Assembly (NCBI GenBank): GCA_945903305.1
Contig: CAMDOA010000028.1
Span: forward strand, 1 to 33,064
DNA: 33,064 bases
Source: Chitinophaga pinensis
GTDB taxonomy: Bacteria > Bacteroidota > Bacteroidia > Chitinophagales > UBA10324
Direction of reading: 5' to 3'
The notes beneath the pieces were generated by a model. It ran no database searches. It worked only from the letters and a program-made list of their open reading frames with translations, and was not told the origin of the DNA. The translations under genes and the position numbers were made by a program. Of the stretch, positions 13,896-24,015 are shown one piece after another. Each line of letters opens with the position of its first letter. The stretch's first letter is position 1.

Positions 13896-15161
13896 ATGAC
13901 CACAAAAAGTTATTTAGATATGGAACTGCTTCGCTTCACAACGGCTGGCAGTGTTGACGATGGAAAAAGCACATTGATTGGAAGACTGCTTTACGATTCG
14001 AAATCAATTTTTCAGGATCAGCTGGAAGCCATTGAGCACACAAGCAAGCAACGCGGCGAGGAAGGAGTAAACCTTGCATTGCTCACTGATGGATTGCGTG
14101 CCGAACGCGAACAGGGAATTACCATTGATGTTGCGTACAGATATTTTGCCACACCAAAACGCAAATTCATTATTGCCGATACTCCCGGCCACATTCAATA
14201 CACACGGAACATGGTTACCGGTGCGAGCACTGCAAACCTTGCAATCATCTTGGTGGATGCACGAAACGGAGTGGTTGAACAAACCCGTCGTCATTCATTC
14301 ATTGCATCGCTGCTCGAGATTCCGCACATTATTGTTTGCATTAACAAAATGGATTTAGTGAACTGGAGCGAAGATGTTTTTGAAACCATAAAATCAGATT
14401 ACACATCATTCGCATCAAAGCTCGATGTTCGTGATATTCATTTCATACCAATCAGTGCATTGAAAGGAGATAATGTGGTGGATCCATCACAAAATATGTT
14501 GTGGTATAATGGCAGCACATTGTTATATCTATTAGAAAATATTCACATTGCTTCTGATGTCAATCACATTGATGCACGGTTTCCGGTTCAATATGTTGTT
14601 CGACCTTACAGCGATAAATATCACGACTACCGCGGCTACGCAGGCAGAGTAGCCGGCGGAATTTTTCGCCCAGGTGACGAAGTGGAAATTTTGCCAAGTG
14701 GTTTCAGTTCAAAAGTAAAAAGCATCGATACTTTCGAAGGGCCACTTGCTGAAGCATTTGCTCCAATGAGTGTATGTATAACTCTTGAAGATGACATTGA
14801 TATCAGCCGTGGTGATATGATTGTTCGGAAAAATAATAAACCTGAAATTAGTCAGGATGTGGATTTAATGATTTGCTGGATGAATGAAAAACCCATGCAA
14901 TTAAATGGCAAGTATGCTTTTAAACACACTACTCGTGAAGCCCGATGTGTAATAAAAGATGTAAAATATAAAATGGACATCAGCACCATGTCTCGTTTGT
15001 CGGATGATAAAAATTTAGGGAAAAATGACATTGGTCGAATAACCATTCGCACTACTATTCCTGTAATGTTCGATAGCTATCGTAAAAACAGAATTACAGG
15101 TTCTATTATTTTAATTGATGAAGCAACCAACGAAACTGTTGGTGCCGGAATGATTGTTTAA
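13896..15161 (+). CDS. cysN: Sulfate adenylyltransferase large (GTPase) subunit
   Basis: 421 residues. The GTPase motifs are complete: G1 GSVDDGKST (18-26), REQGITIDVAYR (switch I), G3 DTPGH (95-99) and G4 NKMD (150-153). EF-Tu-like beta-barrel domains follow (VQYVVRPYSDKYHDYRGYAG onward). GTP hydrolysis by CysN drives APS formation by CysD. The protein ends soon after the second barrel (NETVGAGMIV) with no fused APS kinase, which agrees with the separate cysC. It is the last gene of the cysC-cysD-cysN group. Confidence 0.95.
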   Translation: MTTKSYLDMELLRFTTAGSVDDGKSTLIGRLLYDSKSIFQDQLEAIEHTSKQRGEEGVNLALLTDGLRAEREQGITIDVAYRYFATPKRKFIIADTPGHIQYTRNMVTGASTANLAIILVDARNGVVEQTRRHSFIASLLEIPHIIVCINKMDLVNWSEDVFETIKSDYTSFASKLDVRDIHFIPISALKGDNVVDPSQNMLWYNGSTLLYLLENIHIASDVNHIDARFPVQYVVRPYSDKYHDYRGYAGRVAGGIFRPGDEVEILPSGFSSKVKSIDTFEGPLAEAFAPMSVCITLEDDIDISRGDMIVRKNNKPEISQDVDLMICWMNEKPMQLNGKYAFKHTTREARCVIKDVKYKMDISTMSRLSDDKNLGKNDIGRITIRTTIPVMFDSYRKNRITGSIILIDEATNETVGAGMIV

Positions 15162-15170
15162 CTGGATTGG

Positions 15171-15201
15171 TTAGTGAATGTTAAAAATTAACCTACATTC
15201 G
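15171..15201 (+). promoter_or_regulatory. Weak promoter candidate upstream of the Cys-rich small protein
   Basis: TACATTCG at 15194-15201 matches TAnnTTTG at all but one position, and TTAG at 15171-15174 lies 19 bases upstream. The pair resembles the cysC promoter candidate. Transcription would start a few bases before TTG 15212. Weak evidence in AT-rich DNA. Confidence 0.3.
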
Positions 15202-15211
15202 TAAAACCATT

Positions 15212-15616
15212 TTGAAATCAGCCCATTACATATCAAGAGGAATTGCAGCAGTTTTATTGCTGGTAATGATTCATTCGCATTTATGTGCGGGGCTTTGTGC
15301 ATCGGGTTATTATTCGTGTTGCAGTGATGGAAATGAAATTGCTGATTGTTGCAAAAAGAGTTGCGATGAAAACAAAAATAAAAAACAAGATAGCGGTTGC
15401 CAGAAGGAACACCTTGCATTGTTTGGAACATTCGGGCAGTTTCATTTTATAAAATCAATTAAAGCAAAAATTTTTCAACCATTAGTTTCTCTTTTAAATA
15501 CGGAGAAAAATATTCTGTCTGTTATTTCAACAGAAATTCATTTTGCGTTTAACGGATTTCATCCGCCACCACCGAAAGAGAATATTATTATTCTCAATCA
15601 GAGTTTTCTTATTTGA
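15212..15616 (+). CDS. Small cysteine-rich exported protein of unknown function, possibly metal-related
   Basis: 134 residues from a TTG start. There is no in-frame ATG between the upstream stop (15182) and this TTG. The first internal ATG (15266) would cut the hydrophobic segment at residues 10-28, which reads as a signal peptide or anchor. Eight Cys fall in residues 25-63 (single Cys, then CC pairs at 36-37 and 46-47, then 51 and 63), accompanied by HSH at 21-23. The C-terminus has FHPPPPKE. I do not recognise a named family. The Cys and His density and its position next to copper-type genes suggest metal binding or sensing; this is inference. Confidence 0.65.
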   Translation: MKSAHYISRGIAAVLLLVMIHSHLCAGLCASGYYSCCSDGNEIADCCKKSCDENKNKKQDSGCQKEHLALFGTFGQFHFIKSIKAKIFQPLVSLLNTEKNILSVISTEIHFAFNGFHPPPPKENIIILNQSFLI

Positions 15617-15637
15617 TTTTTATTTCCATTTTTTTCT

Positions 15638-15657
15638 GACAGATATAATTATCTGTC
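15638..15657. promoter_or_regulatory. 20-base palindrome, candidate operator of the metal-handling operon
   Basis: GACAGATATAATTATCTGTC consists of perfect 8-base arms around a TAAT centre. It lies 80 bases before the ATG of the first thioredoxin-like gene. A T-rich run precedes it and none follows, so it does not look like a terminator of the gene upstream. The size and spacing suit a dimeric repressor; no regulator gene is visible nearby. Confidence 0.45.
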
Positions 15658-15737
15658 CGGAATTATTTATGCTAAAGTCAAAATAACAATTTTTCAACCA
15701 TAATAAATTTCAATCATTCAAATTAATTATTTCCAAA

Positions 15738-16511
15738 ATGAAAAAATCAATTTTCTTATCAATTGCCTTGATGTTCGTACTTACGATTTCCAAAGCGCAA
15801 ACCGCCTTTAATTTTACTGCCACTGATTGTGCAAGTGTCAGTCACACTTTATTTACCGAGCTCGATGCAGGAAAAACAATTGTAATGGTTTGGGTAATGC
15901 CTTGCGGCGCTTGCATTGGTTCAGCAGTAGCTGCTTCAAACACCGTTGCTACAATGGGAAATCCAAATGTTGTTTTTTATCTGTTTGATGATGCAGGCGG
16001 AAGTTGCAGCGGTTTGACGAGCTGGTCGTCATCAAACAGCATTAATGCAACTGCCACATTTGATAATGCAGGCAACACCAATGCACAATCAAATTATGGT
16101 TCGGGTGGAATGCCTAAAACTGTTGTTGTTGGTGGTGGAACTTCTCACACTGTTTATTTTGCCGAGAACGGAACGGTTACTACTGCACAACTTCAAGATG
16201 CAATCAATAATTCTCTTTCAGCCATTGCAGCTGTTCCTGATTTCAAAGTGGTTACTACCGAAGTCAATCTGTTTCCAAATCCTGCAACTGCTTCAACCGA
16301 GTTTACATACACTTTGACTAAAGCATCTCAAGTTTCAATTGAGTTGTTCAATACTCTTGGACAAAAAATAATTTCTTCTCCTTCAAAACTTCAGATTGCC
16401 GGACAACAAACTTTCGAAATCAACTCCTCAATTTTAGAGGAAGGAATTTATTTCGTTCAATTGACTGCCAATGGAGAAACAACCACTACCAAGTTCAGTG
16501 TTGTAAAATAA
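15738..16511 (+). CDS. Secreted thioredoxin-like protein with T9SS type A tail (paralogue 1)
   Basis: 257 residues. The signal peptide (1-20, ending SKAQ) precedes a thioredoxin-like domain with a redox motif CGAC at 56-59 (WVMPCGACIG), an extra Cys 31 and a cis-Pro-type strand GGMPKTVVVGG. A type A sorting domain follows from NLFPNPATAS to GIYFVQL. It is predicted to work outside the cell as a thiol-disulfide or metal-binding protein. It heads the tight gene group running to 22277. The next gene is a paralogue whose signal-peptide DNA is almost identical. The thioredoxin fold is judged from motif spacing, so the exact subfamily is uncertain. Confidence 0.8.
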   Translation: MKKSIFLSIALMFVLTISKAQTAFNFTATDCASVSHTLFTELDAGKTIVMVWVMPCGACIGSAVAASNTVATMGNPNVVFYLFDDAGGSCSGLTSWSSSNSINATATFDNAGNTNAQSNYGSGGMPKTVVVGGGTSHTVYFAENGTVTTAQLQDAINNSLSAIAAVPDFKVVTTEVNLFPNPATASTEFTYTLTKASQVSIELFNTLGQKIISSPSKLQIAGQQTFEINSSILEEGIYFVQLTANGETTTTKFSVVK

Positions 16512-16558
16512 TTTTCAGGAAGATTAATCAAACTAAATTTTTTTAATAAAAAAACCAA

Positions 16559-17344
16559 ATGAAAAAATCAATTTTCTTATCAATTGCTTTGCTGTTCGTA
16601 CTTACGATTTCCAAAGCGCAAACAGCCATGCAATTCAGTGGAATGGATTGCAATAATAATGCTGTTGATCTTTTTGCCGACTTAGATGCAGGTAAGGCCG
16701 TAGCACTTCATTTTTATATGCCAAGCTGCGGTAGCTGTCCGCCTTCGGCACAAAAAATACAGGCAATGGCAAATAATATTAATAGTCAATTTCCGGGAAT
16801 GGTAAAGGGTTATGCCTTTCCGTTTCAGAATACAACTTTATGTTCCTATTCATCAACCTGGGTATCCTCAAATAATTTATCAGATTTATATGCTCCAATG
16901 GATAGTGGTGAAGTTCAGGTTGCACATTATGGAGGTTTTGGAATGCCAACAATAGTTTTATTAGGCGGTTCAAACCATCGCACCATGTTTTCTACTCAAA
17001 ATTTTGCAACAAGCGATACTACTATAATGCGAGATTCGATTCTGGCATTGTTCGGAATTGTAGCAGGCATGAATGATTTACAAACCAATGTTTCTTCATT
17101 TGAAATTTATCCTAATCCGGCAACTGATATTGTTTCAATTAATATTTCATTAACAGAATCATCAGTTTTAAACATTGATGTAACAGATATTACCGGAAAA
17201 CAAATTGCTATTATTGCCAATGAAAATCAAATTGGATTAATATCGAAACAATTCAATACCTCAGCATTGGCAAATGGAATTTATCTTGTTCGATTAAATG
17301 TGAATGGAAAAATTTCTACTCAAAAGTTAACCGTTGCACATTAA
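16559..17344 (+). CDS. Secreted thioredoxin-like protein with T9SS type A tail (paralogue 2)
   Basis: 261 residues with the same plan as its upstream neighbour: signal peptide 1-20, Cys 31, active-site-like CGSC at 57-60 (FYMPSCGSCPPSA), a cis-Pro-type GFGMPTIVLLGG strand and a type A sorting domain (FEIYPNPATDIV, GIYLVRL). CPPS after the motif resembles peroxiredoxin/TlpA-type thiol proteins. The mature domains differ clearly from paralogue 1 while the first 69 bases differ at only three positions. The multicopper oxidase starts 2 bases after the stop. A role in keeping surface thiols or copper reduced is an inference from context. Confidence 0.8.
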   Translation: MKKSIFLSIALLFVLTISKAQTAMQFSGMDCNNNAVDLFADLDAGKAVALHFYMPSCGSCPPSAQKIQAMANNINSQFPGMVKGYAFPFQNTTLCSYSSTWVSSNNLSDLYAPMDSGEVQVAHYGGFGMPTIVLLGGSNHRTMFSTQNFATSDTTIMRDSILALFGIVAGMNDLQTNVSSFEIYPNPATDIVSINISLTESSVLNIDVTDITGKQIAIIANENQIGLISKQFNTSALANGIYLVRLNVNGKISTQKLTVAH

Positions 17345-17346
17345 CC

Positions 17347-19083
17347 ATGATTTTATTTTTCAAAAAATTATTTTTAACAGTAGCTGTAATTTTTACAGCT
17401 ACTGTTTTTGTATCAGCTCAAAATCAACTTTTCATTCCGCCTGTATTAACCGGAACTACTTTTAATTTGAATGTTCAAACCGGCACACAAACATTTTATA
17501 TCGGAACAACAACACCTACTTATGGAATTAACGGAGCATGGATGTCGCCAACTTTAATAGTAAACAAAGGAGATAGTATCACTTTAAATGTTATAAATAA
17601 TTTACCTGTAGCAACCACTATGCACTGGCATGGGCTGCATGTTGCAGCTATGAATGATGGTGGTCCGCATCAAATAATAAATGCATCAACTACCTGGAGC
17701 CCGACATTTAAAGTAAGGAACAATGCCGCAACTTTTTGGTACCATCCGCATGGCGAAGGAAAAACCGAACAACAGGTTTCAAAAGGATTAGCAGGTTTAT
17801 TTATTGTAAAAGATGCTGCTGAAGCACTAATAAATCTTCCACGAACTTATGGCGCTGACGATTTTCCAATCATTGTGCAGAGTAAATCGTTTGATGTTTT
17901 GCAGCAAATTGCCATTGCCACTGATATGGATACTGCCTTGTTTGTAAATGGAACTTTGAACCCATTTTTAAATGTGCCGGAACAAGTAGTTCGGTTTCGT
18001 TTATTAAATGGAAGCAGTTTACGATCTTATAATTTTGGATTAAGCAACGGACAAAATTTTTATCAGATAGCCACTGATGGTGGATTATTAGATTCAAGTA
18101 TTTCGCTTTCACGATTAAAATTAAGTCCAGGTGAGCGGGTTGAAATACTTATTGATTTTTCAGGCATGCTGTCACAATCAATATTTCTGCAAAGTTTCGG
18201 GTCAGAATTACCAACCGGAATTTATGGTGCCGATACTGTAGGAATGGGAATGGATTCCATTCATGAATATGAAGAAAATTATTTGAACGGAATTGATTTT
18301 AATTTATTGCAACTAAATATTGTTGCTGCAATTGCAAATCCGGTTACCACAATTGCTTCATCATTAATTCCATATAATCCTATAAATAGCAGCAGCGCAA
18401 CTAATTTCAGAACCATTGTAATGGATACTTTAAGATTATTGCCAATGGATCAACCCAATTTGGCTGAAGGGCCTTTTGGTATGAACAATCAAACTTTTCA
18501 CATGGATAGCATTAACGAAATTGTTTACCTCAACACCACAGAAGTATGGACATTGAAAAACAAAACATTAATAGCACACCCATTTCATATTCACGACATT
18601 CAATTTAATATTCTTGAAAAAAGCGGGCTTCCTCCATCACCATCAGAAAATGGATGGAAAGATGTAGTGCTTGTTATGCCGGGCGATAGCGTAAAATTTA
18701 TTACAAAGTTTGAAACATTCGCTGATAACATAACACCTTACATGTATCACTGCCACTTGCTGCATCACGAAGATGATGGAATGATGGGTAGCTTTTTAGT
18801 AATCGATACTTTCAACATTTCTACAACTGAAATAACTCAAAGTACTTCTGTAAAAATTTATCCCAATCCTTCCGGAATTAATGTAACAGTTGAAGCAATG
18901 CAGCTTTACGGCAGCACTATTACTATTAATAATATTCTTGGAAAAGAAATTTTCAGAGTCATGGCAGCAAGCAGCTCTCAAAAAATTAATGTCAGAAATT
19001 TTGCCGATGGAATTTATTTTTTAAAAGTGATGAATAATAATAATCAGGCAACGATTAAAAAATTTATTGTTTCTAAAAATTAA
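17347..19083 (+). CDS. CueO-like multicopper oxidase with T9SS type A tail
   Basis: 578 residues. All four copper-ligand blocks are visible: TMHWHGLH (His 93, 95), FWYHPHGEG (His 133, 135), HPFHIH (411, 414, 416) and YHCHLLHHEDDGMMG (His 468, Cys 469, His 470, His 474, Met 479). These give one type 1 site and the trinuclear cluster. The sequence is closest in style to CueO/bilirubin-oxidase-type enzymes, which oxidise Cu(I) or phenolics with oxygen. There is no CueO-like Met-rich insertion. The signal peptide ends near VSAQ, and a sorting domain (VKIYPNPSGINV to GIYFLKV) follows the enzyme domain, so this oxidase is predicted to be exported across the outer membrane rather than kept in the periplasm. 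Confidence 0.93.
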   Translation: MILFFKKLFLTVAVIFTATVFVSAQNQLFIPPVLTGTTFNLNVQTGTQTFYIGTTTPTYGINGAWMSPTLIVNKGDSITLNVINNLPVATTMHWHGLHVAAMNDGGPHQIINASTTWSPTFKVRNNAATFWYHPHGEGKTEQQVSKGLAGLFIVKDAAEALINLPRTYGADDFPIIVQSKSFDVLQQIAIATDMDTALFVNGTLNPFLNVPEQVVRFRLLNGSSLRSYNFGLSNGQNFYQIATDGGLLDSSISLSRLKLSPGERVEILIDFSGMLSQSIFLQSFGSELPTGIYGADTVGMGMDSIHEYEENYLNGIDFNLLQLNIVAAIANPVTTIASSLIPYNPINSSSATNFRTIVMDTLRLLPMDQPNLAEGPFGMNNQTFHMDSINEIVYLNTTEVWTLKNKTLIAHPFHIHDIQFNILEKSGLPPSPSENGWKDVVLVMPGDSVKFITKFETFADNITPYMYHCHLLHHEDDGMMGSFLVIDTFNISTTEITQSTSVKIYPNPSGINVTVEAMQLYGSTITINNILGKEIFRVMAASSSQKINVRNFADGIYFLKVMNNNNQATIKKFIVSKN

Positions 19084-19101
19084 TAATGAAAAACATTGAG
19101 C

Positions 19102-20565
19102 ATGAATAAATTTATTTTCTCTGCACTGATATTGATTTTTTTTGTAACAGATGCTCAGTCACAAATCAGTTGGAATAATACCATTGATGTTTCTCCAAAC
19201 ACATTCGGCAATCTGCATCCGCGCATTGCAATCGATGGAAATAATAATCCAATGATTTTATGGGGACAATCATCCACTAAAGTTTGGTTTTCAAAATTGA
19301 GCGGAGCTGCTTTTATAACGCCCGTTCAACTGAACCCATCAACCATTCCGGCATTTTCTATTTCATGGGCAGGATCTGATATTGCATCGCACGGCGATAC
19401 AGTTTATGCCGTGTTTAAAGAAAACCCCGAAGCAACCGGTCATGTTTATATTGTGCATTCTTACGATGGTGGAATAAATTTTTCTGCTCCTGTGCAGGTC
19501 GATAATATTGCCGATAGCATTTCAAGTTTTCCAACCATTGCCACTAATGACGATGGAAATCCGATTGTTGGTTTTATGAAATGCAATTCCGGCTATACAG
19601 ATTTCAGATGGGTGGTTTCAAAATCTGCCGATTTCGGAAATACTTTTTCAGCTGATGTAAAAGCAAGTGGCTTTTCCGGTGGCGAAAATTGTGAGTGCTG
19701 TCCCGGCACCATTGTTTGCGATGGCAGTACAGTAGCCATGTTGTATCGCGATAATCTGAATAACATAAGAGATACATGGGCCGGAATTTCAACTGATGGC
19801 GCCAATACTTTTGCAGGAGGAATTAACATTGACCAAAATAACTGGATGCTGATGTCGTGCCCGTCAACTGGTCCCGATGGAATTATTATTGACGACACAC
19901 TCTATTCAGTTTTTATGAGTACTCCGGCGGCAAACGATTTAATTTATTGGAGCAAAGCATCAATCAGTAATTTACAATCAGCCGGCGCAATGGAACTGAC
20001 CGGCATGTTTACAGGATTAACACAACAAAACTATCCGCGCATGGCATCGCATTACAATGCGGCTGCAATTGTTTGGAAACAAGTTGTGAGTTCAAAAAGC
20101 CAGCTTGCAATTTATTTTACTTCAGATATTCACTCAGGATTTAATAATCCATTCGACACAATAGCAGCAGGACCATTAAATGAAATTGTGAATGCTGATG
20201 TAGTAATGCTCAACGGAAAAATTCATGTTGCCTGGCAGGATAATGCAAGCGGAACAGTGAAATATAAAAGCGGAACTTATTCATATGCTGAAAACATTAA
20301 ACCTGTTTCCGAAAAATTATTACTGAATGTATATCCGAACCCTTCTTCAACAGTTTTAACTATTGAAATTCCATCTTCGCTTCAATCATTGTATGCTTAT
20401 GAGATTTATGATATTAATGGAAAATGGATAAAAACTGTTTGGAGAAATTCATTCAAACAACAAATTGACATCAGCGATTTAGCTGATGGAATTTATTTGC
20501 TGCAGCCGTGGGCATGCTACTGGAAACCTGAGCCACAAAAATTTATCATTCATCATTACAAATAA
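19102..20565 (+). CDS. Secreted beta-propeller (BNR/sialidase-like) protein with five-Cys pattern (paralogue 1)
   Basis: 487 residues. Signal peptide about 1-21 (DAQSQ), then repeated propeller-like strands (HSYDGGINFSAPV, SKSADFGNTFSADV, GISTDGANTF) in the style of BNR/Asp-box sialidase folds. CECCPG at 197-202 is followed by Cys 206 and Cys 253 (MLMSCPSTGPDG); all five Cys are kept in the downstream paralogue. No sialidase catalytic Arg triad was identified, so enzyme activity is not claimed. A type A sorting-domain-like end (LNVYPNPSSTVL) terminates in an unusual YLLQPWACYWKPEPQKFII. TTG 19096 is rejected in favour of ATG 19102, the natural signal-peptide start. Confidence 0.75.
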   Translation: MNKFIFSALILIFFVTDAQSQISWNNTIDVSPNTFGNLHPRIAIDGNNNPMILWGQSSTKVWFSKLSGAAFITPVQLNPSTIPAFSISWAGSDIASHGDTVYAVFKENPEATGHVYIVHSYDGGINFSAPVQVDNIADSISSFPTIATNDDGNPIVGFMKCNSGYTDFRWVVSKSADFGNTFSADVKASGFSGGENCECCPGTIVCDGSTVAMLYRDNLNNIRDTWAGISTDGANTFAGGINIDQNNWMLMSCPSTGPDGIIIDDTLYSVFMSTPAANDLIYWSKASISNLQSAGAMELTGMFTGLTQQNYPRMASHYNAAAIVWKQVVSSKSQLAIYFTSDIHSGFNNPFDTIAAGPLNEIVNADVVMLNGKIHVAWQDNASGTVKYKSGTYSYAENIKPVSEKLLLNVYPNPSSTVLTIEIPSSLQSLYAYEIYDINGKWIKTVWRNSFKQQIDISDLADGIYLLQPWACYWKPEPQKFIIHHYK

Positions 20566-20581
20566 ATTTAAACCAATAATA

Positions 20582-22060
20582 ATGAATAAAACAATTTACT
20601 CTTTTCTTGTTTTCATTTCACTGTCCACGCTCGTTTCTGCTCAAAGTGGAATCACATGGGGCATGGGAATGAATGTCAATACTTCTGCAACGGGGAATCT
20701 TCGTCCACGCATCACTACAGATGGCGCTGGAAATCCTGTAATCATTTGGGGAAAGAGCAGCGATGAATCCTGTTACATCTCACTATGGAACGGAACTGCT
20801 TTCACAACACCAATGAAAGTGAATCCAACTTCAATGACCATCGCTGCCATGAATTGGGAAGGTCCCGAAATCGCATCCAAAGGCGATACTGTTTATGTGG
20901 TGATGAAAGAAACTCCTGAAGGCGATTTAACAAGCAAAAGTTACATCACTCGCTCGGTGGATGGTGGCATGTCTTTTTCTGCGCCTGTCATGCTTGATAA
21001 TTTTCCGGATAGTCTTTCCCGCTTTCCAACTGTTACAGTGGATGCAAACGGAAATCCGATTGTGGGTTATATGAAATTCAATTCAACATTTGGCGATGCC
21101 CGCTGGGTAGTTGCTAAATCCACTAACCTCGGAAATACTTTTTCTACAGATGTTAAAGCAAGCGGTTATTCGGCAATGGGTGCATCGGTCTGCGACTGTT
21201 GCCCGGGCGGTCTCACTTGTACAGGCAACAATATTGCAATGATGTATCGAGATAACAATAGCAATATCCGCGATACATGGGCGGGCATTTCTACCGATGG
21301 CGGAAGCACTTTCCCTTCCGGTATGGCGCTCGACATGGAAAACTGGATGCTCATGATGTGTCCTTCATCAGGTCCCGATGGAGTATTCATCGGCGATACA
21401 CTTTACAGCACATACATGAATGGCGCAGGCGGAACCAACAAAGTTTATTTCAGCAAAGCATCTGTTTCAGCAATGACAAACACCGCAGGCACACCAATTA
21501 CAGGAACCATTGCAGGATTAACCCAACAGAATTATCCGCGAATTGCAAATTCAGATAATGCTGTAGCAGTGGTTTGGAAACAAATTGTAAATGGCGAAAG
21601 TCAGTTGCTTTTGCGATTCAGCGAAAACATAACAAATGGACTTTCTGCTGTGCTTGATACGGTTGATGTAAGTAATATTACCAATACAGATGTGGCACTT
21701 GCAAACGGAAAAATTTACATCGTATGGGAAGATGATGGAAGCGGAACAGTTAAATTCAGGAGTGGAACTTATGCCGTTCCAAATTCAATTTCTGTTGTTA
21801 ATGAAAATGAAGCATTGACAGTTTATCCAAATCCGGCTGGTGATTACATCAATCTGGATATTAAAAAAATTCCGGGATGCTATGGATATTCCATACTTGA
21901 TATTTCAGGAAAAATTATTTTAAAATCAGACTTTAAGTTAAATAGTACAATCAATAAAATAAATGTAAGCGGATTGACTGGGGGCACTTACATGCTTCAA
22001 CCTGTTGCTTATTATTACCAACCTGCGCCAATCAAATTCATTGTTCACCAAAATAAATAA
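20582..22060 (+). CDS. Secreted beta-propeller (BNR/sialidase-like) protein with five-Cys pattern (paralogue 2)
   Basis: 492 residues from ATG 20582. The open frame extends upstream into the previous gene, but a signal peptide (MNKTIYSFLVFISLSTLVSAQ) begins exactly here. It aligns along its length with the preceding protein: RSVDGGMSFSAPV, VCDCCPGGLTC (Cys 204, 206, 207, 213), DTWAGISTDG and Cys 260 in MLMMCPSSGPDG. The spacing between the five Cys is the same in both. The C-terminus (LTVYPNPAGDYI) ends in YMLQPVAYYYQPAPIKFIV, matching the odd tail of its partner. Tandem duplication is the simplest origin. Function unknown; a Cys-bound metal centre or disulfide cluster is possible. Confidence 0.78.
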   Translation: MNKTIYSFLVFISLSTLVSAQSGITWGMGMNVNTSATGNLRPRITTDGAGNPVIIWGKSSDESCYISLWNGTAFTTPMKVNPTSMTIAAMNWEGPEIASKGDTVYVVMKETPEGDLTSKSYITRSVDGGMSFSAPVMLDNFPDSLSRFPTVTVDANGNPIVGYMKFNSTFGDARWVVAKSTNLGNTFSTDVKASGYSAMGASVCDCCPGGLTCTGNNIAMMYRDNNSNIRDTWAGISTDGGSTFPSGMALDMENWMLMMCPSSGPDGVFIGDTLYSTYMNGAGGTNKVYFSKASVSAMTNTAGTPITGTIAGLTQQNYPRIANSDNAVAVVWKQIVNGESQLLLRFSENITNGLSAVLDTVDVSNITNTDVALANGKIYIVWEDDGSGTVKFRSGTYAVPNSISVVNENEALTVYPNPAGDYINLDIKKIPGCYGYSILDISGKIILKSDFKLNSTINKINVSGLTGGTYMLQPVAYYYQPAPIKFIVHQNK

Positions 22061-22067
22061 TTGTGTT

Positions 22068-22277
22068 ATGAAAAAATCCTTCCTCACCTTTTCAGCAATA
22101 TTGATTGTTGTGTTTTTTATTGCATCGTGCAATGGAACAACAAGCACCACTGAAACCAAAACCAATTCTACCGATTCGGTTAAAGTTGCTTACACCTGCC
22201 CCATGCACCCCGAAGTAACTAGCGATAAACCAGGCAGTTGCCCTGAATGCGGGATGGATTTAACCGAAAAAAAATAA
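22068..22277 (+). CDS. Small lipoprotein with heavy-metal-binding domain (HMBD)
   Basis: 69 residues. The lipoprotein signal ends FFIASC (Cys 21). After a Thr/Ser-rich linker comes a heavy-metal-binding motif: YTCPMHPEV (Cys 44, Met 46, His 47), then PGSCPECGMDL (Cys 58, Cys 61, Met 63). This short domain is found in copper efflux components such as CusB-like adaptors and some P-type ATPases, and as stand-alone small proteins in Bacteroidota. It starts 7 bases after the propeller gene. The open frame reaches back to 22005, but ATG 22068 gives the lipoprotein signal. It probably captures copper or a similar ion in the periplasm or at the outer membrane. Confidence 0.9.
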   Translation: MKKSFLTFSAILIVVFFIASCNGTTSTTETKTNSTDSVKVAYTCPMHPEVTSDKPGSCPECGMDLTEKK

Positions 22278-22347
22278 TTGCCGATAAATTTATGTATCAC
22301 TAATATCATTTTAATTGTTCCAATTCGTTCTGATATAAATAAAAAAA

Positions 22348-24015
22348 ATGAAAATCCTGTTAATCCTTTTTAGTTGCATAGTGTCTTATTTTTTTTCTTT
22401 TGCGCAGATTGACGCAGAAAATTTTGTTCGCGGAAATCTCATTATTCAATTGAAACCTCAAGCTTCAATTAATTCTCTCCAACCTTCTTTCATTATCAAC
22501 CAAAATCAACAGGTCAAAGTTGAAGTAATAAAATGTTTAAGCAGTAGAATGAAAATTTATCTGCTTTCTTTTGATACATCAAAAGCAAATGAAGCGGTGA
22601 TGATTGGGGTGCTTCAAACCAATTCACTTATTTCCATTATTCAGTTAAACCATAAAGTTGAACAAAGGGCATTGCCAAATGATACTGAATTTAATCAAAT
22701 GTGGAGTTTGAATAACACGGGTCAATCAGGTGTTATTGATGCCGACATTGATGCACCCGAAGCTTGGAATATTACAACCGGCGGATTAACCTTTTACAAC
22801 GATTCAATTGTAGTGGCCGATATTGATGGTGGATTTGATTTAAATCATCAGGATATAAATTATTGGAGAAATTATAACGAAGTTCCAGGCAATGGAGTTG
22901 ACGATGATGGAAATGGCTACATTGATGACCATCGTGGTTGGAATGCATACAACAGTACAGGTACCATATCTTCAAACATGCATGGCACACACACAGCCGG
23001 AACAATTGCTGCAAAAGGAAACAATGGTATTGGAATAACCGGAATTGGATGGAATACACAACTGATGCCCATTGCAGGTTCGGGTGGAGATGAAGCTACT
23101 GTAATTGAAGCATACGGATATGCACTTGATATGCGTGCGGCTTATAATACCTCCATAGGTACCGGTGCATTTGTGGTTGCTACAAATTCTTCCTTCGGAG
23201 TAAACTTCGGACAGCCGGCTGCTTATCCTCTTTGGTGCGCCATGTATGATTCTCTTGGCGCGTATGGAATTTTAAGCGCAGGAGCAACTGCTAATTTGAA
23301 TATCAATATTGATTCGCAAAGTGATATTCCTACAGCATGTGCAAGTAATTACTTGGTCACTGTCACCAATACAACATCAAACGATACCCGAAATTCTTCT
23401 GCAGCTTTCGGATTAAATACCATTGACCTTGGAGCGCCCGGAACAGATATTTTATCAACCATTCCCGGCAATTCATATAATACACTTACCGGAACATCTA
23501 TGGCCACACCGCATGTTGCCGGTGCCATTGGTTTGATGTATAGTTTGCAATGCAAAAATTTTATGGATGCTGCAAGGAGTAATCCTTCGCAAACTGCTTT
23601 GAATATTAAAAATTTTTTTTTGCAGGGTGTTGATACTATTCCGGATTTGTTAAATAAAACTGTGTCGGGCGGACGATTGAATTTGTATAAATCTTTGAAG
23701 TTGCAAAGAAATTTTTATGGTTGCTTTTTTTCGTCAGTTGAAAATATGACAAAGGAATTTGAAAGCATTCATGTTTATCCTAATCCGGCAATGAGCCTAT
23801 TGACAGCACAATTTATTTCAATAAAAGAAAAAAATATCCGTGTTATTATTTTAAACTCTTTAGGGCAAGAAATTATTTCCAAGACCATTCATATCAATCC
23901 GGGAATGACTGAAGAGAAAATTGATATTAATTTTCTTTCTCCGGGCATTTATCTCTTTTGCCTGCATGATTTGGTTACCGGTTATTCTTCAACTGCTTCA
24001 TTCAGCAAACAATAA
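22348..24015 (+). CDS. Secreted subtilisin-family (S8) serine protease with T9SS type A tail
   Basis: 555 residues. Signal peptide 1-20 (FSFAQ), then a propeptide-like region with LIIQLKPQAS (about 30-105). The S8 catalytic triad is Asp 160 (VVADIDGGFD), His 212 (MHGTHTAGT) and Ser 384 (GTSMATPHVAG). GNGVDDDGNGYIDD is a calcium-binding-style insertion common in S8 enzymes of this phylum. The end is a type A sorting domain (IHVYPNPAMSLL to GIYLFCL). The gene lies 70 bases after the metal-binding lipoprotein and may be separately transcribed; a functional link to the copper cluster is not evident. Confidence 0.92.
   Translation: MKILLILFSCIVSYFFSFAQIDAENFVRGNLIIQLKPQASINSLQPSFIINQNQQVKVEVIKCLSSRMKIYLLSFDTSKANEAVMIGVLQTNSLISIIQLNHKVEQRALPNDTEFNQMWSLNNTGQSGVIDADIDAPEAWNITTGGLTFYNDSIVVADIDGGFDLNHQDINYWRNYNEVPGNGVDDDGNGYIDDHRGWNAYNSTGTISSNMHGTHTAGTIAAKGNNGIGITGIGWNTQLMPIAGSGGDEATVIEAYGYALDMRAAYNTSIGTGAFVVATNSSFGVNFGQPAAYPLWCAMYDSLGAYGILSAGATANLNINIDSQSDIPTACASNYLVTVTNTTSNDTRNSSAAFGLNTIDLGAPGTDILSTIPGNSYNTLTGTSMATPHVAGAIGLMYSLQCKNFMDAARSNPSQTALNIKNFFLQGVDTIPDLLNKTVSGGRLNLYKSLKLQRNFYGCFFSSVENMTKEFESIHVYPNPAMSLLTAQFISIKEKNIRVIILNSLGQEIISKTIHINPGMTEEKIDINFLSPGIYLFCLHDLVTGYSSTASFSKQ

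Follow-up and report, generated by a model that had tools for sequence, protein, structure and literature searches.

Descriptions of copper defence in bacteria usually place it in the cytoplasm and periplasm. Here, we analyzed seven consecutive genes in a 33,064-nt stretch of DNA from Chitinophaga pinensis (GenBank assembly GCA_945903305.1, contig CAMDOA010000028.1, forward strand), hereafter the window, which encode a small cysteine-rich protein (the leader), two thioredoxin-like proteins (TRX1 and TRX2), a multicopper oxidase (MCO), two beta-propeller proteins (PROP1 and PROP2), and an HMBD lipoprotein (Table 1). With moderate confidence, we regard them as a copper-response operon, most products of which are exported and form a defence and exchange module. 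Copper is probably handled outside the cell, by parts mostly of known kinds in a new arrangement, since relatives of the secreted proteins adjoin copper-export genes and the first gene resembles a copper-sensing leader.

The closest described system is cutFOG (CutF-CutO) of Rhodobacter capsulatus. According to the accessible parts of the reports, a small exported-type protein with a CXXXC motif and a C-terminal polyproline is encoded there upstream of a multicopper oxidase operon and followed by a hairpin, as in the window (PMC8456105, PMC9973294). The same parts report that the CutF-like class is common in Bacteroidota (PMC8456105, PMC9973294) and that regulatory modes differ within it (PMC9973294). 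Unlike in cutFOG, the downstream products here carry tails for the type IX secretion system (T9SS), two T9SS thiol proteins precede the oxidase, a second hairpin lies inside the oxidase gene, and leader relatives often end in F-[LRQ]-[IL]. Moreover, the stem-loop of cutF-cutO, as far as its description is accessible, covers the next ribosome-binding site, whereas the main hairpin here misses the next start region. The leader class is already known; no description of its position ahead of a T9SS oxidase module was found in the literature searched. In the literature searched, copper, type IX secretion, multicopper oxidases, and Bacteroidetes were nowhere combined, and a publication containing both a multicopper oxidase and T9SS handled them, in its accessible parts, as separate topics. 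Besides the work on CutF, on copper in Bizionia, and on PP-motif arrest peptides, the accessible parts of the literature found contained nothing bearing on the gene set.

Export signals and gene neighbourhoods

Translation confirmed the seven + strand genes (15212-22277) in the order given by the initial annotation, which had read them as an extracellular copper module. The leader gene ends 121 bases before the TRX1 start, and from TRX1 onward the intergenic gaps are 47, 2, 18, 16, and 7 bases, in agreement with the annotated maximum of 47. Five T9SS tails had been proposed, and indeed five of the seven proteins (TRX1, TRX2, MCO, PROP1, and PROP2), and no others, exceeded the cut-off of the Por_Secre_tail model. 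As expected of T9SS type A cargo, the tails are C-terminal and the host has both translocon and sortase: its 3.1-Mb genome (99% complete, in 138 contigs) codes for SprA (2565 bits) as well as a sortase of the PorU type (1341 bits). Because of the tails, SprA, and PorU, the predicted export of the five proteins by T9SS is supported. The HMBD lipoprotein, also annotated correctly, matched PF19335 with 60.1 bits (cut-off 23.6) and has a putative lipobox, IASC, located by eye. A search of positions 15100-22500 against Rfam gave no match.

Table 1. Features of the copper-associated locus in the window
Feature	Position	Strand	Description
TACATTCG	15194..15201	+	Putative -7 box, 10 nt upstream of the leader start; promoter role predicted
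Leader ORF (Cys-rich small protein)	15212..15616	+	TTG start, 134 aa, CutF-like
Post-leader hairpin	15638..15657	+	Perfect 8-bp stem GACAGATA/TATCTGTC, past the leader stop
TRX1	15738..16511	+	Thioredoxin-like, CGAC, GGMP loop, T9SS tail
TRX2	16559..17344	+	Thioredoxin-like, ResA/TlpA-type predicted fold, four invariant Cys, T9SS tail
Multicopper oxidase (MCO)	17347..19083	+	CueO-like, four copper-ligand motifs, T9SS tail
Intragenic hairpin	17376..17409	+	14-bp stem 17376-17406, loop 3, TTT; MCO codons 10-21
PROP1	19102..20565	+	BNR-type beta-propeller, CECC (aa 197-200), NWMLMSCP (247-254), T9SS tail
PROP2	20582..22060	+	PROP1 paralogue, CDCC (204-207), NWMLMMCP (254-261), T9SS tail
HMBD lipoprotein	22068..22277	+	69 aa; PF19335

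Matches to the propeller profile occurred in 83 of 296 phylum genomes (many of them weak), 7 of 16 family genomes, and 71 of 396 order genomes at E 1e-8. Related copies adjoin genes for CopA/CopB-type ATPases, Cus-type efflux, CopA-type oxidases, HMBD proteins, and AraC-type regulators, and such company was seen across several families of the order and, beyond the order, in a single genome. Relatives are labelled below by locus (L numbers) and genome (G numbers), and their gene starts were taken from a custom caller of open reading frames (ORFs). The order leader-TRX1-TRX2-MCO-PROP was found in G306 (L040/L082), and leader-TRX2-MCO-PROP in G308 (L041/L085). One contig of G307 (L160) carries leader-TRX1-TRX2-T9SS protein-MCO; another (L039) carries a partial MCO followed by PROP, an HMBD lipoprotein, a Met/Cys-rich protein, a P-type ATPase, a DUF3347-like protein, and a CopA-type MCO; a third (L083) has a PROP2 orthologue (89%), then an ArsR-like gene and Cus-type genes. 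G300 (L086) has TRX2, a 225-aa protein, MCO, PROP, an AraC regulator, an HMA/MerT-like protein, a leader, a DUF3347-like protein, and a CopA-type MCO. The phylum-level relative G192 (L049) has a leader, TRX2, a 233-aa protein, MCO, and a broken PROP, followed by two genes and then Cus-type genes with HMBD, while in G033 (L059) a distant propeller is flanked by an HMA protein and an AraC-type regulator, together with an HMBD protein and a CPH ATPase. The names Cus, DUF3347, MerT, and ArsR come from reading the neighbours' sequences; for the four neighbour examples tested, Pfam confirmed E1-E2 ATPase, ACR_tran, AraC-type HTH, and Cu-oxidase domains. MCO, propeller, or TRX2 lies beside copper genes at L039, L049, L059, L083, L086, L127-L129, L138, L144, L145, and L155, and further at L158, L159, L184, L187, and L198. 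Of 12 ATPases longer than 300 aa that were read in the copper-gene loci, 11 contain a CPH or CPC motif and one (L159) contains SPC. The initial annotation had named lack of co-occurrence in other genomes as grounds for giving up its reading; in fact, the genes are found together in other genomes, with copper genes next to them. It had also reported that no copper pump is present. This applies to the window alone; elsewhere, the genome encodes a P1B ATPase containing a CPC motif as well as an RND protein of the CusA/CzcA type, and the pumps of some relatives adjoin the module.

In the sample of 396 order genomes, 15 contained both a strong propeller match (>140 bits) and a strong MCO match (at least 360 bits), and the two lie less than 10 kb apart in seven of them (G000, G306, G308, G300, G403, G382, and G370). 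An eighth pair is found in G307, where the partial MCO lies beside the propeller at a contig end. TRX2 adjoins MCO, directly or with one 225-aa-type gene between, in 9 of 24 MCO loci, which were chosen within the upper part of the match list. Copper genes were identified by BLAST with seeds from L039, L049, L059, L083, and L086 and the HMBD lipoprotein of the window. They were present in 10 of 35 further propeller loci and 7 of the 24 MCO loci versus 1 of 19 same-genome control stretches, hand-placed and two of them short (p 0.041 and 0.050, respectively).

The genes could also have no common function, being neighbouring T9SS cargo genes brought together by chance and acting on other substrates. 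Five tails in a row are less remarkable because T9SS tails are common in this genome (at least 150, with 150 of 353 candidates scored), and the regional enrichment of copper genes is only modest. Nevertheless, we consider this explanation very improbable, the least probable of those weighed here: gene order is kept in several genomes (L040/L082, L041/L085, L160, and L124), the hairpin is shared, and the leader is of a metal type.

Downstream of the seven genes, an S8 protease with a T9SS tail (22348-24015) starts 70 bases past the HMBD lipoprotein gene. It was rejected as a member of the module; no S8-labelled match was found among the relatives' neighbourhoods listed.

Oxidase, thioredoxin-like proteins, and propellers

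The oxidase contains PF07732 and PF07731 above the cut-offs and PF00394 slightly below (20.2 versus 21), as well as what we take to be the four copper-ligand motifs. In these domains and motifs it resembles CueO and CopA/PcoA; however, it scored below the cut-offs of both models, with 360 bits to the CueO equivalog NF008205 (cut-off 525) and 100.3 bits to the CopA/PcoA model TIGR01480 (copper_res_A; cut-off 478.95), and it has a T9SS tail rather than being a periplasmic protein. TRX1 and TRX2 are paralogues (36% identity) with near-identical signal peptides. Pfam Thioredoxin_2 scored below its cut-off for TRX2 and did not match TRX1. The predicted TRX2 fold (pLDDT 86) is a thioredoxin of the ResA/TlpA type, with 1su9 as the best Foldseek match (E 8e-8) and a Sco protein at rank 50. 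The likeness to ResA/TlpA and Sco extends to the CxxC motif and the GMP loop; TRX2 differs in its T9SS tail and in two further invariant cysteines. Invariant in 20 aligned proteins are C11, C37-x-x-C40, C75, and the loop Y-G-x-x-G-M-P (numbering of mature TRX2). In several relatives, a 225-233-aa T9SS protein absent from the window is encoded between TRX2 and MCO (L086 12073-12747, L160 1696-2388, and L049 6809-7507); NCBIfam confirmed its T9SS tail, and no further domain matched.

The main rival explanation is maturation of a secreted cuproenzyme: ResA/Sco-like thiol proteins and the propellers would load copper into the T9SS-exported oxidase, which would oxidise phenols, iron, or manganese outside. 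The ResA-like predicted fold of TRX2, its Sco match, and its steady partnership with MCO in the 9 loci mentioned above are consistent with this. We consider it unlikely, since metal neighbours, where present, are mostly efflux and resistance genes and since the 360 bits to the CueO model compare with 148.5 bits to the o-aminophenol oxidase model and 42 bits to the laccase model.

PROP1 and PROP2 are paralogues (49% identity). The AlphaFold model (pLDDT 90.7) is a BNR-type propeller, for which Foldseek ranked sialidases and PLL lectins first; upon realignment of the candidates, CylK (7ron) was closest (Z 35.2, rmsd 2.7 over 331 residues), with PLL lectins at about Z 28. The fold is shared at an identity of about 11%. 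Foldseek against viral models returned mostly generic or unnamed matches, including sialidase-like and fibre proteins. The window propellers scored 13.6 and 21.3 bits against BNR_2 (PF13088, gathering threshold 31.4), and 35 of the 45 members of the propeller alignment matched PF13088 at E 0.01, so that the distant BNR relationship stands. No Pfam or NCBIfam model names the family, with only generic BNR, tail, or weak matches. By sequence, no solved structure of the family was found; the matches were a lipase via its T9SS tail, weak ones, and sialidase-type or generic propellers.

Invariant in the 45 members, which are 11%-64% identical to PROP1, are C179, C181, C182, R198, R205, W230, C235, and P236 (mature numbering); a pattern was used to preselect the cysteines but not the two arginines and the tryptophan. 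To our knowledge, these CxCC, R, R, W, and CP residues have not been described for CylK, PLL lectins, or sialidases. Without cysteine preselection, CxCC...CP was present in 64 of 67 propeller matches of the listed loci, the three misses being gene fragments; a broken copy in L088 and the weak match L022 lie outside the 67. A conserved fifth cysteine, part of the initial description, was rejected, as only four are shared across the family. The four may form a metal site; two disulfides are a possible alternative. The propeller genes of three genomes are interrupted (L049 9235-10694, L132 8697-10148, and L088 1982-3454), and the propeller may be dispensable or decaying there. At L053, L057, and L060, inspected by eye, distant CxCC propellers, some lipoprotein-like, adjoin large TonB-receptor-like genes and genes for small proteins with C-[DN]GxC and PP near the C-terminus, an arrangement possibly serving copper uptake.

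The leader and the RNA hairpins

The leader has a hydrophobic N-terminus, eight cysteines, PPPP at 118-121, and SFLI as its last residues. In terms of the published rules for CutF-like proteins, it is shorter than 150 aa (134 aa; a limit taken from the accessible part of PMC9973294), matches no Pfam family (a rule of the 2021 paper), contains CXXXC (C25-C29 and C47-C51), has PP among its final 15 residues (P120 and P121 of 134), and has a same-strand gene less than 1000 nt downstream (TRX1, at 121 nt). Of the signal peptide named in these rules, only the hydrophobic N-terminal stretch was observed. The window leader matches no NCBIfam family, including HYC_CC_PP (NF047658), whereas 16 of 24 leader relatives match the latter at E 0.01. 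Among four orthologues, the TTG start and about 20 nt upstream are conserved, substitutions concentrate at third codon positions, and changed codons are nonsynonymous more often than synonymous. Since the protein follows most of the published CutF-like rules and 16 of 20 relatives inspected throughout the phylum precede recognisable metal genes, the first small gene appears to encode a copper-sensing leader peptide of the CutF-like type and probably not a copper store. The small protein, previously proposed as a partner of the exported proteins, fits a regulatory leader instead.

Upstream of it, TACATTCG resembles what we take to be the Bacteroidota -7 box (consensus TAnnTTTG), and the block TAC[AT]TTCGTAAA is common to the window, L082, L085, and L160. 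Sigma-70 promoter matches were no better than in shuffled sequence. Between cysN and the leader gene, nested inverted repeats GAATGT...ACATTC and GTTAA...TTAAC (15162-15211, located by eye) are possibly an operator; they are not evidently shared by relatives. Past the leader stop, the post-leader hairpin has folding z-scores of -3.5 over 75 nt and -2.2 over 127 nt, and a weaker A+U stem is predicted at 15700-15730, 7 nt upstream of the TRX1 start.

A filter for leader-like ORFs (length 85-185 aa, three or more Cys, PP among the final 32 residues, and a hydrophobic N-terminus) retained 36 ORFs in the window and 1507 kb of test loci, with L137 and the second ORF of L155 being doubtful, and none in 334 kb of control sequence; short and duplicate loci were left out, and L047 and L148, one stretch, both count in the kilobase total. 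The ending F-[LRQ]-[IL], which was not selected for, occurred in 22 of the 36 versus 14 of 2077 other ORFs (12 of 472 of similar size). The 75 nt past the leader stops had a mean z of -1.85 (n=36) compared to -0.72 for other ORFs (n=250; p 8e-6). A profile of 24 leaders matched 99 of 296 genomes of the phylum. In 20 loci picked by hand, mostly from the upper part of that list and including the weaker second match of the own genome, a leader was found in 19, with 20 leaders altogether. Downstream of 10 leaders lie homologues of the copper seeds (HMBD, Cus, DUF3347, CopA, and AraC); of the remaining 10, six are followed by a Pfam HMA protein and four by none at E 1e-3, two of these four preceding a Pfam-confirmed TonB receptor. 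The second leader-type protein of the own genome (L232, C11:17425-17742) is followed by a TonB receptor and an HMA protein.

Such leaders ahead of TonB receptors and HMA proteins, together with the distant propellers of L053, L057, and L060, would fit copper uptake, in which propellers and the HMBD lipoprotein collect scarce surface copper for a TonB-dependent receptor. This is improbable for the operon in question, which has no TonB receptor and whose close relatives, where they have metal neighbours, lie in efflux islands.

The intragenic hairpin sits within the signal-peptide codons of the gene after TRX2, at the same position in relatives. The first 120 nt contain a perfect stem of 11 bp or more followed by a T-rich tail in 5 of 1519 ORFs scanned, and four of these five directly follow TRX2 (window, L082, L085, and L158). 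Terminator-like hairpins of -12 kcal or below occurred in 14 of 19 TRX2 junction rows (L124 coming from a split ORF and L186 having its hairpin further downstream) versus 13 of 220 operon junctions. In nine aligned TRX2 junctions, 8 of 12 pairs are changed on both sides; the covariation score was 0.481, compared to a mean of 0.250 in shuffled alignments (0 of 500 reached 0.481) and at most 0.176 in slid versions. A covariance model run over 1.57 Mb matched ten TRX2 junctions and nothing else below E 0.1, nine of the ten being the training set and L082 alone independent. At L123 (8337-8417), where the T9SS gene that normally follows TRX2 could not be recognised, the hairpin is nevertheless intact, a hint that the RNA itself is under selection. 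The structure would terminate transcription and so favour the thioredoxin-like proteins over the oxidase, a bias that also suits cuproenzyme maturation.

Proposed handling of copper outside the cell

For the copper-response operon favoured here, the following route may be proposed. By analogy with CutF, the 134-aa leader would be exported during its synthesis, and copper on its Cys motifs would alter ribosome pausing at PPPP, so that pausing and the RNA structure past the leader stop set the expression of the operon. The hairpin in the MCO codons would let transcription continue past TRX2 only in part, or only where translation follows closely, and thioredoxin-like proteins would outnumber the oxidase and propellers. 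Guided by the signals observed, T9SS is predicted to place the thioredoxin-like proteins, oxidase, and propellers on or outside the cell, while the HMBD lipoprotein would stay in the envelope. Cu(I) delivered by CopA/Cus-type pumps encoded elsewhere, or met outside, could be bound by the CxCC...CP propellers and the HMBD lipoprotein; the thiol proteins would keep it exchangeable, and the oxidase would oxidise it to Cu(II). Gene co-occurrence, export signals, conserved motifs, and the conserved RNA hairpin were observed; binding of copper, control by it, joint action outside the cell, and oxidation of Cu(I) are proposed.

Several observations weigh against this reading. Exported proteins need not stay together outside the cell. 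Leaving G307 aside, seven more of the 15 genomes have MCO and propeller on separate contigs or, in G541, at a distance of 25 kb. Without RND parts, copper genes remain in 8 of 35 propeller loci (p 0.097), so the regional enrichment is modest, and the copper argument rests on the named neighbourhoods rather than on regional counts. Among propeller loci below 45% identity (L134-L157), 5 of 24 have a copper gene, compared to five of the ten highest-scoring ones (L123-L132), of which L124 has the TRX2-MCO cassette but no copper gene; therefore, the copper link is clear within the close propeller subfamily and loose among distant members. A role of every CxCC propeller in copper resistance was considered and dropped, many distant ones having no copper neighbour in the stretches read. 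An intact, weaker propeller match (L022) lacks CxCC. The post-leader hairpin ends 80 nt upstream of the TRX1 start, and no consensus RNA structure was found directly past the leader stop among the four orthologues. At L159, L184, L187, and L190, the hairpin of the TRX2 junction is weak or missing.

From the initial copper-module reading, co-occurrence and export signals are retained, while the Cys-rich partner, the fifth cysteine, and a system without a pump are not. Only tentatively can the module be specified further, as a copper-defence layer beyond the outer membrane made of a T9SS-exported cuprous oxidase, thiol-exchange proteins, and four-Cys propeller metalloproteins and governed by two nested switches, a nascent-chain copper sensor and a terminator in signal-peptide codons setting the thiol:oxidase ratio. 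The candidate terminator within a coding region would be a compact case of regulatory RNA overlapping a signal peptide, and the CxCC propellers seem to constitute a metal-binding family, as yet without a name, that is widespread in the phylum. If an oxidase and its thiol partners do act beyond the outer membrane, copper would be disarmed before entry by an outer defensive line that Bacteroidota have linked to a secretion system of their own.

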